Assembly: GCF_037975245.1 (NCBI RefSeq)
Contig: NC_092569.1
Location: 34,634,668-34,698,667 of the forward strand
Origin: Apostichopus japonicus
Lineage: Eukaryota > Echinodermata > Holothuroidea > Aspidochirotida > Stichopodidae
Length of the DNA: 64,000 nt
Reading direction: 5' to 3'
Shown piece by piece: positions 12,922 to 50,107 of the stretch; position 1 is the stretch's first letter, and each line of letters opens with the position of its first letter. Both the position numbers and the translations under genes were made by a program. The notes beneath the pieces are model-generated. The model was not told where the DNA came from. It was given only the letters and a program-made list of their open reading frames with translations, and ran no database searches.

Positions 12922-13259
12922 CTATACCGGCCGTATTTTCATCTCTGTGTATTGTATACCACAATCGTTTCCACTAAGATAATCCCAGTAGATGTTCGTT
13001 CCTCGAGTAGAGCCGTCGTAGTCTCCGTTGAGGTGAGAATAAGCGCATTTAGCGCATTTGTCGCTGCCATCAGGAAAATATTCACAATAATAACTATACT
13101 GACAATAAGACCGACGATAAGAATAATTACAGTGATAATAACGATAGAACCACCAGGCTCCTCTGTGTCTCTCAGCACAGTCGAAGGTACTCCATCCATC
13201 GTTGTCCCGGTCTTTTGTACTGAATTGTTTATTGTTGCTACCAGACAAAGCATTATAAC
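12922..13259 (-). CDS. Gene 1 exon 11: terminal FReD segment C
   Basis: 338-nt last exon, phase 1 in, stop TAG at 12922-12924. It holds the calcium-site signature FSTKDRDNDG, then CAERHRGAWW and the terminal SHLNGDYDG ... YTEMKIRPV. About 36 residues, mostly Tyr and Cys, separate GAWWF from SHLNG, where most FReDs have about six. Its C-terminal loop (IYWDYLSGNDCGIQYTE) differs from genes 2 and 3 (YSLNxYGCSLQYTD). Confidence 0.92.
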
Positions 13260-16200
13260 CTGCAACAAACGAGAAAGAGTACATAAACCGGTCAATTGAT
13301 AAACTTTGAACGAAATGAACATCGGATACAAGTTAGAGGGCAGTGCGTTTTTGTCCTACCAAGATAAAAACGTCAATTCCGCGTATTTTGTTGTTTTTTG
13401 TGTTCAAATATTTAGGATACATGAGTAGGTATTTTGTCTTTGCAAGGAAGTTATTATACAATTTTGTTTTTGTTTCGTTTGAAATACAGTGCCACAGCAG
13501 TAGCCACATGCAGATGGGGAAACTTTACTAGAGCTTGGTTACTAGAGTTGTTAATATCGCTCTTAATTTATATTTATCGACATTTATTTACAATAATATT
13601 CTTCATTATATTTGTACATTATTTCTCTAAGTCCACAACTGAGTGGTTTCCTAGTCTATCAAAACTCGAGTTATTGTTTTCTTGTGTGTTTCGGTGTCAA
13701 ATCTTATCATTTATTGAATAATAGTAAGAGTAATTCAATTTGCATAGTCTGCATAATTTGCAAGTTTTCAAGTTCATTTTTATTCAACCCTTTGCTTTTT
13801 TATTTTGTACCACACTGTTTAACATAGGATCTTCTCGAAGCTGATTGAGGATGGACGCCGGGAGAGGGGGTGGGCTGGACTGTGTCAGTTTAGGAAAGCA
13901 AGGGTATCATTTAAAAAGCTAGTCCTTAGTAATTTAACCTGTTATTATTACTAACAAAGGAATAATTGCAATTTGCTGCAGAAACCATCTCCTCACAAAA
14001 CAAAAATGAAGTAGACCGCATAATTCTTTCTGTCAATATTATGGTTCTAATATAATATATGTCCTGCTCCAAATTCCCTGTTCCACTGGGCAGGGCAATA
14101 AGGGTGTTGTTGCCATCGATTGTTCAATACTTTACCCGATTTAGCACGTTGTAATCATTGTATATTTCAACCTGAGGCCACACGTTGGACGTATACACGC
14201 AAATTGAAATATGCACTATATACATGACAGATCATGAAATAAATAACTATAAATGAAGAACAGAACCGAAATAGTATAAGGGAAATGACTATAAATATAG
14301 TAGCTAATGTTTTAGGTTTTGAAAAAGTAAAAAAAAACGTCAATGTATTACGTTACGAAAGGATTCAATAATATTGATTATTGGCACTCTATTATTTAAT
14401 ATTTATCGACATGTGCAATCTAGTTTCGTACGTATATCGTTTTCGAGCAGATTGTGCTATTACAAATTGTTACTCTGCAAAATATAGACAAATAGTTAAA
14501 AATGAAACATTTCTGATTCCTCTGTTTGAATTTTTCTGTAGATGATAAACCATAGATGACGTTATATCAAATAATAATTTATAAATAGCGCCTCAACGTT
14601 TGCACATATGAGGATCATCGAGTATACAAACCACTGGAAGTCTCGATACACAGTAACGGGAAAGGACACGCGACATGCTTTCAGGTAGTACTAACATATT
14701 ATTTACCCCTTTTTGAGTTCGAAGTGTTGCGAGTCACTGCCCTACTGTCTACTGCCATAGTCTTATAAATTGCGTTTGGCGGCCATCGCTATCATGAAAG
14801 GCGTGTGTTACTTGCAAGCACGGCGAGGAGACCTTTGTTGCTAAGGAATAGCGAATCTTATTGTCTGCTTCTTGTGTCTATACACATAGTCCTGATAAGA
14901 TACGTTCGTTCCAGCTGTAGTTCAATTGTTTGAAAGAAAGTAGCAATTTTGGAACTGAAAATTGCAGTGAGCATGAAAAAAAGATAACATTTGGCCAGGA
15001 TTGTGGTAGATGACATTAGTTGTTGTAGAATACACATTCAAGGAGTACTATACAAATTAAATGCTACAGAGGAGCACGTCACCTGAACCTCCAAGGTTGG
15101 CATGTTTTTAGTCTTCGCGCGCCTCCTAATTGACATTATCGTTCCAGATGTATGTATGCGTCGATGATTAGAACATCAACTACTCACCTGTATTTCCACT
15201 GTATGATCCAACTGATAGTCGATACTTGTCTGCCTCGTTATTAATGCTGAAAGTCGAATAGATGGCGTAATACGATGATGAAGCGGAATCCCTTAGATCA
15301 ATACGAAGCTGGTACGTTTTCTGGTTGGTCATAGAGTGGATATATTTATTTCCTAGCCAGTGGTCTTGATTTTTATTACCGAAACCGTTCTTGTAGTCCG
15401 TCCAACCAAGATAAAAGTTAACGGAGGCACTCGATCGTCGCTGGATTACCTATGAAATGAAGAAAAAATATAATCCAACTATATAATCTACTACGTCTTA
15501 AGGGCATGACATCAAAATCCAACAAAATAGTAAACAAAGATATGTATATTGTAAAAGTAAATTAGTTTTGAAGAGTATTTTGTTTCTTGATTTCTCTTTA
15601 CCTAAAATGGTAAGTTCATCTCAACGAGATCTGCAGTGCATTATTTTTAGGAAATTAAAGTATAATGTAAGGAAGCTAAGAATATAAATCCTTAATTATT
15701 TACGTAACTCACAGTCCAACCTCCTCCGTTACTTTCCATCTCACAGTAAACCTGAATGCCGCTTGTCCAACCATCAGGATAAATGGTGTACACACCATCA
15801 CTGAGTGTACCGGACACATAAAGCTCGTGGCAATCTTTTGGGACCACCTCGCGAGTGCACGTAACTCCGTCCCCTTCGTAGTTTGGATTGCAGTAACATT
15901 TACGGACACCACTCCTCGTAGCACAGGTTGCGTGACTACTACACTGGTAACTCGCTTGTATAATCTGGTTGTTTCGGCAAGTTGATTTTCGTGTACATCT
16001 TGAATTGACGTAAAAATCGCCAACCTGATTTAAGACATTCAGCGAAAACAAAAACAAAAAACTTATCAATAAATTAGGAATTTGCGGTTGTCACAGTGAA
16101 ATGTACAGCATTTTAACGGTGAGTGGCGAATGATAAAGGTATGAGTATGAACCTTTATTCAAGTTTTATGAAGTATTTGAAGCCAACTCCGAAGTAGGAT

Positions 16201-19200
16201 GCGAAAGGATCCGCTATAAAATAAAATAAAAATAGCTGCAAATATTGCATTCAACGGCTTACCGCGACTATACATTAGGCCTACAAATAGTTCTAACCGC
16301 AAGACTGTGGAAAAAGTTTCTATGGATGTTTGTGTCAGGCTCATAAGTGGATGCACACTCGTAGGGAGTGGTCTCGTGATTCCCGACTAAACGTAATACT
16401 TTCCTCGTCTGACAGTTTTGACTGGACTGAAAAATGGGTCAATAGCCCCTCCCCAACCACGATGCGCACGCCACTGGATTATCTGTAAATGTACTGATTT
16501 TATCGACAAGTATAAATAATAAAGGTTTCCTTCTAATTGTATGGACAATGATTAAGAACAAAGCATTATAAAATTTCCTGAATGAACCGTACTGACCCCT
16601 AATACACTTCCTATGTCGGCTACGAAGCAGTTGTGGGTGCACGTCTCTCCGTCCCCTTAATAGTTTGGATTGCAGTAACATTTACGGACACCGTTCCTCT
16701 CAGCACATGTTGCGTGATCACTACACTGGTAACTCGATTGTATAATCTGGTTGTTTCGGCAAGTTGATTTTCGTGTACATCTTGAATTGACGTAAAAATC
16801 GCCAACCTGATTTCAGACATTCAGCGAAAACAAAAACAAACCTTAATAAACCTTAAATAAATTAGGAATTTGCGGTTGACACAGTGAAATGTACAGAATT
16901 TCATCGGTGATTGGCGAATGATAAATCCTTCGAACGATAAAGGTATGAGTATGAACCTTTATGCAAGTTTTATGAAGTATTTGAAGCCAACTCCGAAGTA
17001 GGAGGCGAAAGGATCCGCTATAAAATAAAATAAAAATAGCTGCAAATATTGCATTCAACGGCTTACCGCGACTATACATTAGGCCTACAAATAGTTCTAA
17101 CCACAAGACTGTGAATAAAGTATCTATGGATGTTTGTGTCGGGCTTATAAGTGGATGCACACTCGTAGAAGTGGTCTCGTGATTCCCGACTAAACGAAAT
17201 ACTTCACTTGACTGACAGTTTTGACTGGACTGGAGACAGAAAAATGGGTCAATGGCCCCTCCCCCCAACCACGATGCGCACGCCACTCGATTATCTATAA
17301 AAGTAATGCTTTTATCAACAAGTATACATAATTAAGGTTCCTTCTTATAATATGGATAATAATTAAGAACAAAGCATTATAAAATTTCCTGAATGAACCG
17401 TACTGACCCCTAATACACTTCCTATGTCAGCAACGAAGCAGTTGTGGGTGCACGTCTCTCCGTCCCCTTGGTAGTTTGAATTGCAGTAACATTTACGGAC
17501 ACCGTTCCTCTCAGCACAGGTTGCTTGATCACTACACTGGTAACTCGCCTCTACAATCCGGTTGTTTTGGCAAGTTGATTTTCGTGTACATCTTGAATTG
17601 ACGTAAAAATCGCCAACCTGATTTAGGACATTCAGCAAAAAGAAAAAGCAAAAGCTTATAAATAAATTAGGAATTTGCGGTTGTCACAGTGAAATGTACA
17701 GAATTTCAACGGTGAGGTGCGAATGATAAATCCCTCGAATGATCTAGGTATGAGAAGGAACCTTTATGAAAGTTTTATGAAGTATTTGAAGCCAACTCCG
17801 AAGTAGGAGGCGAAAGGATCCGTCATCAAGAAAGTAGCTGCATATATTGCATTCAACGGCTTACCGCGACTAAACATTATGCCTACAAATAGTTCTAACC
17901 ACAAGACTGTGAATAAAGTATCTATGGATGTTTGTGTCGGGCTTATAAGTGGATGCACACTCGTATGAGTGGTCTCGTGATTCCCGACTAAACAAAATAC
18001 TTCCCTTGACTGACAGTTTTAACTGGACTGGAGACAGAAAAATGGGTCAATGCCCCCCCCCCCCCCCCCAACCACGATGCGCACGCCACTCGATTATCTA
18101 TAAAAGTAATGCTTTTATCAACAAGTATAAATAATAAAGGTTAATTTCTAATTATTTGGACAATGATTAAGAAAAGAGCACTATAAAATTTCCTGAAAGA
18201 ATCGTACTGACCCCTAATACACTTCCTATGTCAGCAACGAAGCAGTTGTGGGTGCACGTCTCTCCGTCCCCTTGGTAGTTTGAATTGCAGTAACATTTAC
18301 GGACACCGTTCCTCTCAGCACAGGTCGCGTGAGCACTACACTGGTAACTCGCTTGTATAATCTGGTTGTTTCGGCAAGTTGATTTTCGTGTACATCTTGA
18401 ATTGACGTAAAAATCGCCTTCCTAATTCCACGAATAAATAAAGTAAATTAATTATGAATTTGCGGTTGTCACAGTGAAATGTACAGGACTTCAACGATGG
18501 GTGGACATTGCAAACTTCACCTGAATGATCTAGGTAAGGATTTGGATCTTTATGAACGTTTAATAAGGTCTCTGAAGCCAACTCATATGTAGGAGTCCGC
18601 AAGATTCGCCATGAAAAAGTAGCCGTCAAATGTTGCATTAAAACGGCCTATGCGACTATACATTAGGCCTACAATTGGTTCTCATCGCAAAACTATCGTT
18701 AGTAGTATCCATGCATTTTTGTGTAAGGTTTAAAAGGGAATGACATCTGAAGGAGTAGTCTTGTGCTTCCTGACTAAATGTAAGTAAAACATTTGCTTTT
18801 TATTATGCGGAAAAAGTCATTAAGAGCAAGCACTTAAAATGAAAGAACCGTACTGACCATTAATACACCTCCTTTGTCAGCAACGAAGCAGTTGCATTGG
18901 TTCAGATGGATGCATTGTTCTTGCTGTCTCAGATAATTACCGACGCAAACACATTGCTCTGTTTCTGTGCGAGAGGTAGCCGAGATGCAAGTATCAGGGT
19001 CGTCACAAGTCCTCTCGCAGGTCTCATTGCTAAATATCTCATTAGCTGGACACCATTCAGGGATTGTTTCTAGAGAACAGGAAAGAACAAAATGAACATA
19101 ATAGTAACCTGAGACAGTCACGACAAATATGACATGTGGCATAGAATAGTTTGTCGTCATTACTTAAATACGTGGTTGTCAGAAGGTTAAAGGAAAGGAA

Positions 19201-22200
19201 CATACACTCAGAAGCTGCTCTAATAAATGTAGAACATTTTAAATAGGTAGTGGCCGTTCCTTAGTCACATTAATGTTACTATTTATTCTGATAACGAGAT
19301 AAAACACCATCATTTGTTGTGCAATTAGTCTGAAACCAGGTAGTCATGGCTTGTTTCTGTTTCAGAGTTCTCTAGGTGTAAGTATACTGCTTTCTGACAA
19401 CAATGGTAATTAATAACATCATCAAATTTCTTTTCGTTGGTTGTTCTGATCAAACTGGGAGACGAACCTGGTTTAATTGTAAACGTTATGTTGTACTAAC
19501 GTTAGGAACGGTTCCTAGTTCAGAGCCATGGTCGGTGTTGAGTACGAAGCAGTATTGTAGTGAGTGCGTAATCACACTTTAGCTAATGGAGGCATTTTGG
19601 AATTCTAGTATGGATACTAATGCAAGATTAAGTGTTTGAACTTGCACTAGTAGCTTGTACTTGCACTCATATCATATCATATTCTAATTGCTACGATATG
19701 TATTGTAGCGCCGTTGTACTCGCTGATGTATACTCGTACTATATATATTGTAGCAGTTTCTTCAAAACATATTTGACATGCCAAATTTACTTCCAAAAGA
19801 TCCTTTCGTTTTCAGAATAAACCGTTCATTTTCTGCGCGTTTACGTTTTAAATTTAATAAATGATCACGATTTTTATGATTTTTGGGCTTTGTATTTAAT
19901 AATGTAAAAGACACTTACCATCTGATATTTCAAATGTTCCTAAACTAGATATATAATAATCCCCCCATTCATCTGAGATACGAAACTCGTCGTATGTTAC
20001 ATAGTAAGTTTGTCCAGCAACGTTCTCAAAGTCCATTCGCAGTTGGTATCGCTTTTGATTTGTTAAGACGGCAATTTTCTCATTTCCGATCCAAAAGTCA
20101 CTCCCTAGAAAGCCAACGCCATTTCTGAAGTCTTTCCAACTTCTACTAAAATTTACAGAATCCGATCTTCGTCGCTGTAATACCTTCAAAGAATATCAAA
20201 AAAGTTAACTAGGACGTGATTGAATTGTTATTATTTGTTCCCTACTGCAATGCGATTTGTTGCTAACAGCTATTACACAGAAATACTTATACTTATATTT
20301 CTAACTTCAGTTTGTAGTTTGGGCTAGATATTTACAGTTTCCTTGGAAGAAGAACTACGCTGTACCTAAGTACAATCTGGTACTTAAATTCCACAATATT
20401 AAAAATAATTAATTCAAACTTTCGTTTCGATGAAAAAAGCGAGATTCTATTTGAAATAACGACTTTGTATTACATCGCTATATATTGCTGCAATCAAAAT
20501 CTGAAGTAAATTTGTACAAAACTATTTAAAGTTGAAAAGAAAACATCAAGTAATCAGCCATACCGTCCTTCCACCAGTATCAAGATCATTGTTACAGTAA
20601 GCCTCAAACGGTTCCGGATAGCCATCTGGTTTAATAAGGTACACTCCAGATGTAATGTGGGTAGAGGAACATGCATTCGATACTTCTTTGCAGTCTCTCG
20701 GATACGCAGGTTGTTGAAAAACAAAGTATGAAGAACCTGGATGGAAAGTAAAACAAGGTTAACATTTTATTGTGACTGAAAAATCATTTTAGCTAACGAA
20801 AATATCGCCTAAGATGCTTTATCTCAATTGCCTCTCTCCACCCAGGGGTTAATGGGTACATGTCAGGTAACTTGTCATTGGGCGCAGTATATAACTGCAG
20901 CCGTCTGGAGGGATTGTCTCTGGGACAGGTTATTATTGAACAGGGGTAATATAACGTCTGTAAAGCTCTTTGAAACCTATCGCTGTTTAAAAGCGTTACA
21001 TGAATCAAATATTATTATTAATATTTTTACTATAAGACTTTTTAGCTAATTGTAAGAGAACTGGTTTCGTTATTAAGCGAGTTAAGGCAATGCATCAGTT
21101 TAAATATCAATTATTACTCAACTACCATATAGTCGAATATATCACGACTAAAGTTAAATGAAGTAATCGTTATTGAATTCTCAGATGTAACTGATTTGAA
21201 GCATTATATGTGATTAGTTTTTAGCCTGCAATGGAAATTCAAAGACCAAGTAACTTGATTTCTTTTTAACCAAGCTTCCGTAGCTATCAATCATATCCAA
21301 GTGAGATCAAAAGACTCACGAAAACAGGAAAATCCCTTTTGTTTAAAGTACCTGAGAAAATATCGTAGGATATAAAAAGATCGAAAGTATACTACTCAGA
21401 GGAAATCAACCACAAAATAGATATTCGGAAAAAGTAACACGATTGAAAAACAAAACGTCAAGAGCGACCATTAAAAAGCTAACATTTCCAGCCATTCAAG
21501 TTGTCCAACTGAGGTGTTAACGTTTACATTGCATAAGTTATATACCTTACAGAGGTTACTTCTTATAATAAGAAAAATCATATGATATAAATAATACACC
21601 TACCTGAAGATCTTCCCTCGGCACTGACGATTATCTGTGTAATAAAAGATTTACTGAATACATTACAAGACATAGAGAGTATTGCAGTCAACATAAAGCA
21701 GGATCAGATTAAATCTAATGTTAATAAAACCAGTTTGAGGGAAAGAAAGAACCTTTCGCAAACTGGTCTAAAATATGTTAGTTTCAGAGTAAAGTCGAGT
21801 TATACTTTGATAAAATCTCCGGATAACCACTTACAATGATGTTTTTCTTTTGTCTATATTCCATATCTGATTTACAGGTCAATGATCACTTACAGGGTAG
21901 AACTTTCTTCCAGGAAACATTAGATTACTGGCATTTTCCGGTTGTACAGCTACTCTGGCACATGATACGTACGTGAAGGACAGCTTTGTTGCTTAATGCA
22001 GACAGATGTTCTTTGTTCAAGTCATATTTTGACATTAGAACATTTCAAACATGGGTTGTAACACATTTGTGTTTAACAGTCCTTAATAACACGTAGGGAT
22101 CATTAACATCGCCCCAGCTATTCTTGTTGGACGAAGATTACCGTGTCTTGATACTTACCGTGCACAATGAAACTCTGAGTTTTTAATGGTGTCATTTTAC

Positions 22201-28200: not shown

Positions 28201-28673
28201 TTTTTTAAAGTATTTTACATTTGAGAAAATTTTAGAGAATTATGTTTTTAAGCATAGAAGAACCGATTAAAGTTTTTATTCCAATATATGTGGTTAAATT
28301 AAAGACGTTTTGTTATTTTTTGAAACACTGCTGCCCTTTCGCGAAGTTAAAAATTCAAATTTTTAAAGTTTTTTTTTAAAGTTCTTAAAAATAAATATTT
28401 TAAATTGAAGGCCTTCTGACTGAAATTTATCAGGATTTTTTGTCGATATTTTTCTATTTCTTCGAAGACGCTAACACTTCACTTTGTCACATAATTTAAT
28501 ATTTACAGAGTCAGCTCAAAAACACATTGGTGTAACTTATGTTATTTTTGAAACAGAAGATATTCAATGGAGTAAAATAAAATATATTAAATAATAGAAA
28601 GACTTACCATTTCTGTTCCAAACGAGTTCCAAATCGTCAAAACAGTCAAACAAACTATGAAACACTTCTCCAT
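12922..28673 (-). CDS. Gene 1: secreted FReD(partial)-TIL-EGF(x4)-FReD protein, 11 exons
   Basis: Gene model from eleven exons, listed separately: 28608-28673, 21604-21634, 20564-20736, 19919-20183, 18858-19069, 18212-18421, 17408-17617, 16597-16806, 15713-16024, 15188-15449, 12922-13259. All junctions agree in phase and the summed length is 2289 nt (762 codons plus stop). Order in the protein: signal peptide 1-22, linker, partial FReD about 33-178, TIL about 179-249, EGF repeats 250-319, 320-389 and 390-459, EGF plus FReD segment A 460-563, FReD B to about 650, FReD C to 762. The third EGF exon has an in-frame stop. Skipping it keeps the frame and gives 692 residues. FReD proteins bind carbohydrate or acetylated ligands and often act in innate immunity (family knowledge). 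The first FReD lacks a C segment and has Arg in its GGWT motif. Alternative reading: two fused or alternatively spliced genes. Confidence 0.75.
13260..15187 (-). other. Gene 1 intron between FReD B and C
   Basis: No coding signal. 13331-13860 matches 38950-39470 and 60400-60830, so this intron is inherited across units. Otherwise AT-rich. Confidence 0.6.
15188..15449 (-). CDS. Gene 1 exon 10: FReD segment B
   Basis: 262-nt exon, phase 0 in, phase 1 out. It reads VIQRRSSASVNFYLGWTDY, KNGFGNKNQDHWLGNKYI, YQLRIDLRD and DKYRLSVGSYSGNTG. This is a canonical middle FReD. Acceptor TTTCATAG|GTA, donor ACAG|GTGAGT. Confidence 0.9.
15713..16024 (-). CDS. Gene 1 exon 9: EGF repeat 4 fused to FReD segment A
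   Basis: 312-nt 0-0 exon, open throughout, with no intron between the modules. EGF part: VGDFYVNSRCTRKSTC to EGDGVTC. FReD part: KDCHELYVSG, GVYTIYPDGW, IQVYCEMESNGGGWT. The GGGWT motif is intact. Donor ACT|GTGAGT. Confidence 0.88.
16130..16480 (-). repeat. Intronic repeat copy 1
   Basis: A sequence ending (minus strand) AGTGGCGTGCGCATCGTGG lies in each EGF-EGF intron. Its copies at 16935-17290, 17750-18090, 41345-41700 and 62800-63145 show that the element predates the exon duplications and was copied with them. Confidence 0.6.
16597..16806 (-). CDS. Gene 1 exon 8: EGF repeat 3 with premature stop
   Basis: 210-nt 0-0 exon with intact splice sites (AAATCAG|GTT; GGG|GTCAGT) and all EGF cysteines. 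Codon 50 is TAA (16657-16659) where the sister exons have CAA in the NYQGD motif. The neighbouring codon also differs, but silently (TAC to TAT). Inclusion would truncate the protein at about residue 438. Skipping keeps frame. Confidence 0.7.
16935..17290 (-). repeat. Intronic repeat copy 2
   Basis: Close match to 16130-16480 between EGF exons 2 and 3 of gene 1, with the terminal GTGGCGTGCGCATCGTGG and a C-rich tract. Confidence 0.6.
17408..17617 (-). CDS. Gene 1 exon 7: EGF repeat 2
   Basis: 210-nt 0-0 exon coding VGDFYVNSRCTRKSTC, RIVEASYQCSDQATC and CYCNSNYQGDGETC. Intact. It sits about 0.8 kb from EGF exon 1 with matching intron sequence, so the exon and its intron were duplicated together. 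Confidence 0.8.
17750..18090 (-). repeat. Intronic repeat copy 3
   Basis: Same element between EGF exons 1 and 2 of gene 1. The C tract is expanded at about 18053-18069. Confidence 0.6.
18212..18421 (-). CDS. Gene 1 exon 6: EGF repeat 1
   Basis: 210-nt symmetric (0-0) exon coding EGDFYVNSRCTRKSTC, YQCSAHATC, KCYCNSNYQGDGETC and NCFVADIGSVLG. The spacing C-x5-C-x8-C-x-C-x8-C with NYxGDGxTC fits EGF_3-type repeats. Acceptor AATTAG|GAA, donor GGG|GTCAGT. Confidence 0.8.
18858..19069 (-). CDS. Gene 1 exon 5: TIL (trypsin-inhibitor-like) domain
   Basis: 212-nt exon, phase 1 in (CTCTAG|AA), phase 0 out (ATG|GTCAGT). It reads ETIPEWCPANEIFSNETC, then CERTC, TCISA, QCVCVGNYLRQQEQC and LNQCNC, a TIL-type cysteine spacing. 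TIL domains occur in protease inhibitors and as structural modules in secreted proteins. Inhibitory activity is not claimed. Its tail NCFVADKGGVLM resembles the tail of the EGF exons. An upstream in-frame ATG at 19160 could give an alternative start (see findings). Confidence 0.75.
19919..20183 (-). CDS. Gene 1 exon 4: first FReD, segment B'
   Basis: 265-nt exon, phase 0 in, phase 1 out (GATG|GTAAGT). It reads VLQRRRSDSVNFSRSWKDF, then GFLGSDFWIGNEKI, then YQLRMDFEN, the expected central FReD motifs (VxxRRxDGSVxFxRxWxxYxxGFG; FWLGNxxI; LRxDxxD). No C segment follows before the TIL exon. The phase-1 end would also fit directly onto exon C at 13259. Confidence 0.85.
20564..20736 (-). CDS. Gene 1 exon 3: first FReD, segment A'
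   Basis: 173-nt exon, phase 1 in, phase 0 out. It encodes the N-terminal FReD segment with YPRDCKEV, SGVYLIKPDGYPEPFEAYC and a final TGGRT. The FReD hallmark is GGWT. Here the Trp codon is AGG (Arg) at 20567-20569, while gene 2 keeps TGG. Acceptor TTTCCATCCAG, donor ACG|GTATGG. Confidence 0.75.
21604..21634 (-). CDS. Gene 1 exon 2: short linker exon
   Basis: 31-nt exon between TTACACAG and GTAGGT, reading IIVSAEGRSS plus one base. It starts in phase 0 and ends in phase 1, exactly what is needed to join the signal exon to exon A'. Conserved in position in gene 2, where it is 32 nt long. Confidence 0.6.
21635..28607 (-). other. Gene 1 large first intron
   Basis: About 7 kb, AT-rich. It contains a decayed hAT-like element (22308 to about 23420). 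The counterpart in gene 2 (45245-50041) is shorter: roughly 25760-28410 is absent there, and gene 2 has about 560 bp near 47060-47625 that gene 1 lacks. No other exon recognised. Confidence 0.6.
22308..23420. mobile_element. Decayed hAT-like element, right end deleted
   Basis: Left end TAGTGTTGTGCTGATATCGCC and body match 45951 to about 47057. The right terminal inverted repeat is missing. It has no transposase frame. Confidence 0.5.
28608..28673 (-). CDS. Gene 1 exon 1: signal peptide
   Basis: ATG at 28673 opens a 22-codon exon starting MEKCFIVCLTVLTIW, a basic residue followed by a hydrophobic core, typical of a secretory signal. It ends in phase 0 at ATG|GTAAGT. The orthologous exon of gene 2 (50042-50107) is nearly identical with the same start and donor. 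The intron to the next exon is about 7 kb. Confidence 0.75.
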
Positions 28674-38526: not shown

Positions 38527-38875
38527 CTACACCGGTCGTATTTTCATATCTGTGTATTGCAGGCTACATCCGTAACCGTTCAAACTATAACTATACCAGA
38601 ACATGGGCGTTCCTCGAGTAGAGCCGTCGTAGTCTCCGTTGAGGTGAGAATAAGCGCAATATGCGCAGTTCTCGCTGCCATCGGGAAAGCTATAGCAATA
38701 GGGACAGAGAGACCGACAATAAGAAGCAGAAATATAGTATCGTCTACAGTCAAAACGATCGTAGAACCACCAGGCTCCTCCGTGTCTTTCAGCACAGTCG
38801 TAGCGGCTCCATCCATCGTTGTCCCGGTTTTTGTACTGAATTGTTTGTTGTTGCTATCAGATAAGCTATCATATC
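38527..38875 (-). CDS. Gene 2 exon 9: terminal FReD segment C, -1 frameshift
   Basis: The acceptor is intact and the reading starts GYDSLSDSNNKQFSTK. One base is then missing near 38828 (AAAAACC where gene 3 has AAAAGACC). Past the indel the original frame is open to TAG at 38527: RDNDGWSRYDCAERHGGAWW, a 38-residue Tyr/Cys-rich insert, SHLNGDYDG, YTDMKIRPV. As written, the shifted frame replaces all of this. Confidence 0.7.
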
Positions 38876-43519: not shown

Positions 43520-43784
43520 CATCTGATATTTCGAATGTTCCTAAACTAGATATATAATAATCCCCCCATTCATCTGAGATACGAAACTCGTCGTATGTTA
43601 CATAGTAAGTTTCTTCAACAACGTTCTCAAAGTCCATTCGCAGTTGGTATTGCCTTTGATTTGTTAAGACGGCAATTTTCTCATTTCCGATCCAAAACTC
43701 ACTCCCTAGAAAGCCAAAGCCATTTCTGAAGTCTTTCCAATTTCTACTAAAATTTACAGAATCCGATCTTCGTCGCTGTAATAC
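43520..43784 (-). CDS. Gene 2 exon 4: first FReD, segment B'
   Basis: 265 nt, phase 0 to 1. It reads VLQRRRSDSVNFSRNWKDF, GFLGSEFWIGNEKI and YQLRMDFEN. Open and nearly identical to 19919-20183, which indicates constraint or recent duplication. Confidence 0.85.
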
Positions 43785-50041: not shown

Positions 50042-50107
50042 CATTTCTGTTCCAAACGAGTTCCAAATCGTCAAAACAGTCAAACAAACTTCGAAAAATT
50101 TCTCCAT
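50042..50107 (-). CDS. Gene 2 exon 1: signal peptide
   Basis: ATG at 50107. 22 codons beginning MEKFFEVCLTVLTIW and ending GTEM|GTAAGT, phase 0. Counterpart of 28608-28673. Confidence 0.72.

Follow-up and report, generated by a model that had tools for sequence, protein, structure and literature searches.

A half fibrinogen-related domain in a sea cucumber gene family is probably a fixed module of a long protein and looks like the product of a gene fusion

The window analyzed here is a 64,000-nucleotide stretch of the genome of the sea cucumber Apostichopus japonicus (contig NC_092569.1, hereafter C9; C9:34634668-34698667), and its minus strand carries genes that encode fibrinogen-related domains (FReDs). 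Two of them, gene 1 and gene 2, encode a complete FReD preceded by a first FReD that is only half present. We use A, B and C for the exon-encoded segments of a FReD and a prime for the first, N-terminal set, such that the half FReD is A'-B'. This half FReD is probably a fixed and functional part of a long protein, acquired by fusion, with B' normally spliced to the TIL-like exon that follows it and with a role in assembly. The predicted protein has the order A'-B'-TIL-EGF(n)-[EGF+A]-B-C, which would place the half FReD near the N-terminus of a probably secreted product and leave ligand binding to the complete FReD at the C-terminus, whose C exon is variable.

Exons, coordinates and phases of genes 1 and 2 were derived from a minus-strand reading in which exon translations were aligned to the window and splice sites were listed; the ends of EGF-type exons 1 and 2 of gene 1 were placed by eye. 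Locus coordinates below refer to the same contig. The features of the two genes are as follows, with exon letters in capitals at splice sites.

20564..20736, minus strand: gene 1 exon A', the A subdomain of the half FReD; phase 1 in, phase 0 out.
19919..20183, minus strand: gene 1 exon B', the B subdomain of the half FReD; 265 nt, phase 0 in, phase 1 out, ending GATG/gtaagt.
19070..19918, minus strand: gene 1 intron between B' and TIL; no C-like sequence in a C profile search.
18858..19069, minus strand: gene 1 TIL-like exon; acceptor ctctag/AAACA, phase 1 in, phase 0 out.
18212..18421, minus strand: gene 1 EGF-type exon 1; phase 0-0, Pfam EGF_3 at 33.4 bits.
17408..17617, minus strand: gene 1 EGF-type exon 2; phase 0-0.
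16597..16806, minus strand: gene 1 EGF-type exon 3; in-frame TAA at 16659-16657.
15713..16024, minus strand: gene 1 EGF and exon A of the complete FReD in a single exon, from exon alignment and Pfam.
15188..15449, minus strand: gene 1 exon B of the complete FReD; phase 0 in, phase 1 out.
12922..13259, minus strand: gene 1 exon C, with the P subdomain, the C-terminal strand and the stop codon; acceptor ttgcag/GTTATA, phase 1.
28608..28673, minus strand: gene 1 candidate signal-peptide exon; 22 codons, phase-0 donor.
43520..43784, minus strand: gene 2 exon B'; same layout as gene 1.
38527..38875 (low end approximate), minus strand: gene 2 exon C region; one base lost relative to other copies (about 38830), out of frame.

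Pfam Fibrinogen_C (PF00147) matches A, B (profile 45-133) and C of gene 1, and the second FReD thus holds all three segments in order. Exon B' matches the same profile above cut-off (profile 45-123, 72.2 bits, E 7e-20), while A' alone reaches 20.9 bits over profile 2-43 against a cut-off of 22. The A' exon of gene 1, which is bounded by the phase-1 acceptor catccag/GTTCTT and the phase-0 end ACG/gtatgg, reads GGRT where most copies have GGWT. We call the next exon TIL-like because it spans the whole Pfam TIL profile (PF01826; 1-55 of 55) at 20.0 bits, below the cut-off of 24.5. In neither gene 1 nor gene 2 does the stretch from B' to TIL contain a match to the segment with the P subdomain and C-terminal strand, and the exon at 12922..13259 is the sole complete C exon found for gene 1. 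The junctions of gene 2 are identical in kind (B' end 43520, TIL 42665, C 38875). Separately, a lone 3' portion of a C exon lies downstream of the gene 1 C exon (window 11210-11016) and resembles the C exon and 3' region of gene 2.

The same arrangement recurs along the contig. In genome searches with exon queries the best 150 candidates per search were scored, and the counts given here refer to those; off-contig rows were left out (3 of 150 for C, 7 of 150 for B and, in the pairing count, 2 of 150 for TIL). All 150 scored B' matches fall on C9. An A' match lies within 2 kb upstream of B' in 131 of the 150 and a TIL match within 2.5 kb downstream in 127 (355-1787 nt, start to start), and none of these 127 places has a C or B match between B' and TIL. 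Twenty-one of the 23 B' matches that lack a TIL match belong to a group of about 60% identity in the match list; within that group TIL is present in L037 at 37% identity, and in L040, outside the group, at 31%. The full order of B', TIL, B and C before the next B' was found in 92 of 150. At closer range, 19 loci were covered over 10 kb each, among them gene 1, the third gene of the window and near-identical copies. All 19 contain A'-B'-TIL; C falls inside the covered stretch in 13, lies past its end in four and was not found in two (L024 and L025, with no C exon in the 4.8-5.9 kb after B, where it is either lost, distant or too diverged). Nine shorter loci from older classes, at 4.2, 11.2, 19.1, 23.1, 27.8, 29.7 (three) and 32.7 Mb, agree with this order over the part covered, except that A' was not seen in L040 and TIL and B are broken in L041. 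As a side observation, EGF-type exon matches between TIL and A vary from one or two to at least 10 within 10 kb (L011, L022 and others).

A hidden, diverged C segment between B' and TIL was considered and rejected for 33 introns. A profile built from 15 C exons found nothing in 33 of 33 B'-TIL introns (238-874 nt), where the best score was 2.7 bits; six control loci, whose C exons in part went into the profile, gave 64-203 bits. The preliminary description had stated that the C segment is missing from the first FReD and that genes 1 and 2 share this layout. Both statements hold, the first across the places and introns searched (0 of 127 places; 33 of 33 introns) and the second in many further copies (127 of 150).

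Conservation of the half FReD was assessed from exon length, stop codons, diversity and the ratio of nonsynonymous to synonymous substitution rates (dN/dS). Exon B' is 265 nt long in 34 of 34 rows, in a donor search that permitted solely phase-1 ends at 247-285 nt, and no stop occurs in A' or B' among 25 main-class rows. A '1 TAG' flag seen in many B' matches was rejected as a nonsense codon on the basis of three flagged main-class loci (L029, L030, L032), in which it is the tag acceptor of the intron read in frame. Across 20 rows, A' and B' have a nucleotide diversity of 0.02-0.04, compared with about 0.04-0.08 for the flanking introns and 0.07 for TIL. Between subfamilies, dN/dS relative to a main-class copy is 0.09-0.23 for A' in seven of eight pairs (0.41 in the L041 pair) and 0.15-0.23 for B' in seven of nine pairs, the other two being saturated. 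The second B gives 0.11-0.27 in six of eight comparisons, with one saturated and one misaligned row (L037) at 0.68; the broken B of L041 was omitted. Among young copies, the TIL exon has a dN/dS of 0.30. Because B' is paired with TIL in 127 of 150 places with no C between them, and because selection between subfamilies is purifying, we assign the half FReD as a fixed module under purifying selection and not a leftover, which agrees with the earlier argument that it is no random remnant.

The relationships of the A-B segments point to the source of this module. In a midpoint-rooted tree of 31 A-B segments (the broken B of L041 again omitted), the first A-B segments of all 12 double genes form one group (support 100/97), which joins two single-FReD genes near 18 Mb (99/97). 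The second A-B segments lie on the opposite side of the tree with other FReDs. An origin of A'-B' as a tandem copy of the second A-B was rejected, as first and second segments in one group gave a p value of 4e-5 in the approximately unbiased test (p-AU). The two single-FReD genes are:

L048, C9:18374500-18378200: single-FReD A'-B'-C gene; 1527 nt between B and C.
L050, C9:18276000-18279500: single-FReD A'-B'-C gene; 606 nt between B and C.

These genes resemble the first A-B of the double genes in the YPRDC/FPKDC opening of A, the extra cysteine and the phase-1 passage from B to C. Unlike the double genes, they have C straight after B, with no TIL, EGF or second A-B in between, and the B-C gap holds no TIL, EGF, A or B match beyond scraps. 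They are the natural form of a short, complete FReD. More such genes may exist, since 43 of the 147 C matches on C9 have no scored B' match within 30 kb upstream, a count that could rise by one at most because one C row (16912608) was entered without strand. The other half of the double gene has a parallel at 6.45 Mb, where L047 (with L059) lines up a TIL-like exon, EGF and then a complete A-B-C; the 0.9 kb covered upstream of its TIL contains no match resembling B. Unlike the double genes, its A-B groups with L043 and L046 and not with the second A-B. In the simplest history, an A'-B'-C gene would have supplied its A' and B' exons to the upstream side of a TIL-EGF-A-B-C gene, and the first C would have been lost or never carried along. 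Since the first A-B groups with the 18-Mb single-FReD genes, the double gene appears to be a fusion from which the first C was left out.

The C exons have a more mixed ancestry. For the C exons of L012, L017 and L026 (main class) and of L036, L041 and L040, the 18-Mb C exons are a better match than those of other single genes; for the three main-class copies the scores are 114, 102 and 100 bits versus 70, 70 and 63. The reverse holds for the C exons of L037 and of the genes at 4.2, 6.3 and 11.2 Mb, which match the other single genes better and fall into a group with L044 (97/93). In two C-exon trees, a single group of all double-gene C exons is disfavored (p-AU 0.024 and 0.028), as is a group of double-gene and 18-Mb C exons (p-AU 0.040 and 0.013); L042 and L045 were omitted from the second C-exon comparison. 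Exchange of C exons among genes is likely, because their relationships conflict with those of the A-B segments, and the C that the main class carries today may be the one with which A'-B' started out. Within the P subdomain, the double-gene C exons also carry, between GAWW and LNGDY, an insert that is rich in tyrosine and cysteine and differs in length.

The splice sites suggest that B' is normally joined to TIL. Of 33 readable rows, 28 have GTAAGT or GTGAGT as the B' donor, and the TIL acceptor is pyrimidine-rich and close by (850 nt in gene 1), such that a good donor would meet a good acceptor. The preliminary description had noted that B' ends in phase 1 and that both TIL and C begin in phase 1, and the splice sites bear this out. 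It had also proposed from these phases that one gene could give two proteins, namely a long form with the half FReD (B' to TIL) and a short form with a complete FReD (B' to C). The sequence data do not support that step, and we regard regular use of both forms as unlikely. The phases are compatible with it, but they are expected by descent. The second B and the B of L048 and L050 also end in phase 1; C starts in phase 1 because FReD B exons end in phase 1, and TIL does so because it must follow B'. Only phases 0 and 1 are in use and 16 of 28 non-adjacent junctions are in frame, making B' to C one of many in-frame skips. A short product would be a sound FReD, given that the main-class C is close to the C of the 18-Mb A'-B'-C genes, which are its closest single-gene match. 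Against this, the edge of B' that would face C is poorly kept. Its last six residues are the least conserved of 83 sequence windows (identity 0.31 versus 0.70 for the rest, nine rows), whereas the end of B is average (0.63 versus 0.66, eight rows; 31 of 82 sequence windows are lower), with L037 and L041 omitted from this count. Among older classes, some B' exons keep a normal, B-like end, GGTA/G in L033 and L034 and GGNA/G in L039 and L040; main-class copies have EISD/G or similar.

Distance and frame also argue against the short form. In 97 of 150 cases a C match follows B' ahead of the next B', and its distance is never less than 2.77 kb (median 4957 nt); it usually lies past TIL, EGF, EGF+A and B. 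In gene 2, C after either B or B' loses the frame and meets a stop after 98 codons, and the one-base loss would therefore break the short product as well as the long one. The best case for B' to C is L021 (C9:35686700-35696699), in which A'-B'-TIL-EGF is followed by C. There EGF+A and B are gone while A', B' and C remain open, and joining B' to C would be the way to an in-frame FReD. However, L021 is the only clear copy of this kind among the 97; the other matches without B are L041, where B is present but broken, and 35422478. Overall, B' to C would be a minor product at most.

The function of the half FReD is most likely assembly, as suggested by one odd cysteine and by the parts that are absent. 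Exon A' encodes three cysteines in 29 of 30 rows, one beyond the single disulfide of subdomain A, and this odd third cysteine makes a disulfide link between chains plausible. In solved FReDs (PMC5928061), ligands are bound by the P subdomain, and the C-terminal strand is inserted into the B sheet between two of its strands. Lacking both, A'-B' would have an incomplete sheet and is unlikely to bind ligands in the manner of a FReD. An improbable but consequential alternative is that the half FReD acts as an acceptor, with a C segment from a different chain taking the place of the missing strand, or one from its own chain for which A-B would compete. If true, one C would serve two A-B halves, head-to-tail polymers could form and the variable C exons would be a binding surface.

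That A'-B' is instead a decaying leftover, skipped or harmless, appears very unlikely. The dN/dS near 0.5 between young copies and the poorly conserved C-joining edge of B' would fit decay, and the A'-B' block is phase 1 at both ends, such that skipping it keeps the frame if the preceding exon ends in phase 1. Decay does not account for dN/dS values mostly of 0.09-0.23 between subfamilies, a constant exon length, A' and B' exons less variable than introns and the lack of stops in either exon of the 25 main-class rows. On donor and intron evidence, least probable of all is a separate short gene or early-ended transcript, for instance one in which B' is read through its donor. B' does stay open for seven codons past the donor (GKCLLHY) before a stop, but such a transcript would not need the donor that 28 of 33 readable rows keep, and TIL follows after 238-874 nt in 33 introns.

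Several observations weigh against a fixed, functional half FReD of fusion origin. Young copies differ from one another at a dN/dS of about 0.5, in A and B as much as in A' and B', which implies modest constraint, and the TIL exon is as variable as intron or more so in the 20 rows. A stop lies inside A' in one of 150 matches and a few B' matches are truncated. The C-exon trees have many unresolved forks and conflict with the A-B tree. The assembly role is drawn from a single odd cysteine and from absent parts, and the half FReD may be unable to fold alone. The gene 1 model may also lack an exon between the candidate signal peptide (gene 2 counterpart at 50107) and A', because the signal-peptide donor is phase 0 and A' requires phase 1; a search for a joining exon found none. 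Finally, genes 1 and 2 both carry defects, the TAA in EGF exon 3 and the one-base loss in C, and second-half exons of L014, L019 and L020 are defective as well. Near-identical copies about 678 kb further on are free of the defects of genes 1 and 2, and the 35.33-Mb copy has no stop in EGF exon 3.

Some further features of these loci were recorded. Four B' copies recur at equal score 677.6-678.4 kb apart (C9:34.65-34.72 versus 35.33-35.40 Mb), a repeat that is either a recent segmental duplication or an uncollapsed haplotype. L014 (C9:34805400-34815399) has an additional EGF-A-B block without C and with a stop in its A exon, apparently a second half FReD that has decayed. In the phase-0 reading, which would apply if A', TIL or an EGF exon preceded it, the C exon (window 13355-12939 and others) is often open, strongly hydrophobic and membrane-segment-like. 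It stays open over 95 codons in seven of 13 distinct exons versus 2.1 expected from synonymous redraws, and its mean hydropathy is 2.78 versus 2.00; the rows are related, and tyrosine-rich coding accounts for part of this pattern. The one-base loss in gene 2 shifts its C exon into this hydrophobic frame.

The FREP family of A. japonicus has been described as expanded, tandem-clustered and up-regulated in visceral regeneration (Zhang et al. 2017, PMC5638244), and the coelomic fluid of a different sea cucumber is reported to contain fibrinogen-like proteins (PMC12119288), in the portions of these papers available. The genes of the window are likewise fibrinogen-related, strongly expanded and clustered in tandem; the available portion of the A. 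japonicus account mentions no half FReD, TIL exon or A'-B'-TIL-EGF-FReD layout. Nor is the half-FReD layout described in the parts consulted of the open-licence PMC literature (for example PMC11740861, PMC13228809 and PMC10344927), a search whose scope did not extend to subscription papers or gene annotations. The FREPs and FReM of Biomphalaria, as presented in the available text of PMC7588048, are also FReD genes with extra domains and give several predicted proteins per gene by alternative splicing. Their extra domains are IgSF, EGF-like or PAN/Apple, and one FReM has an EGF-like region with a partial FBG, but this is C-terminal and not an N-terminal half beside a complete domain. Composite A'+B' aligns with angiopoietin-1 over subdomains A and B from residue 5 (E 2e-28), whereas the fibrinogen-like domains of angiopoietin and ANGPTL proteins include the P subdomain and C-terminal strand (PMC5928061, available text) that A'-B' lacks. 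The sea cucumber genes would offer a clear case of exons from two genes being joined to make a new immune or matrix protein. The FReD is usually viewed as an indivisible ligand-binding domain, and a half FReD under selection suggests that A-B has a role of its own.

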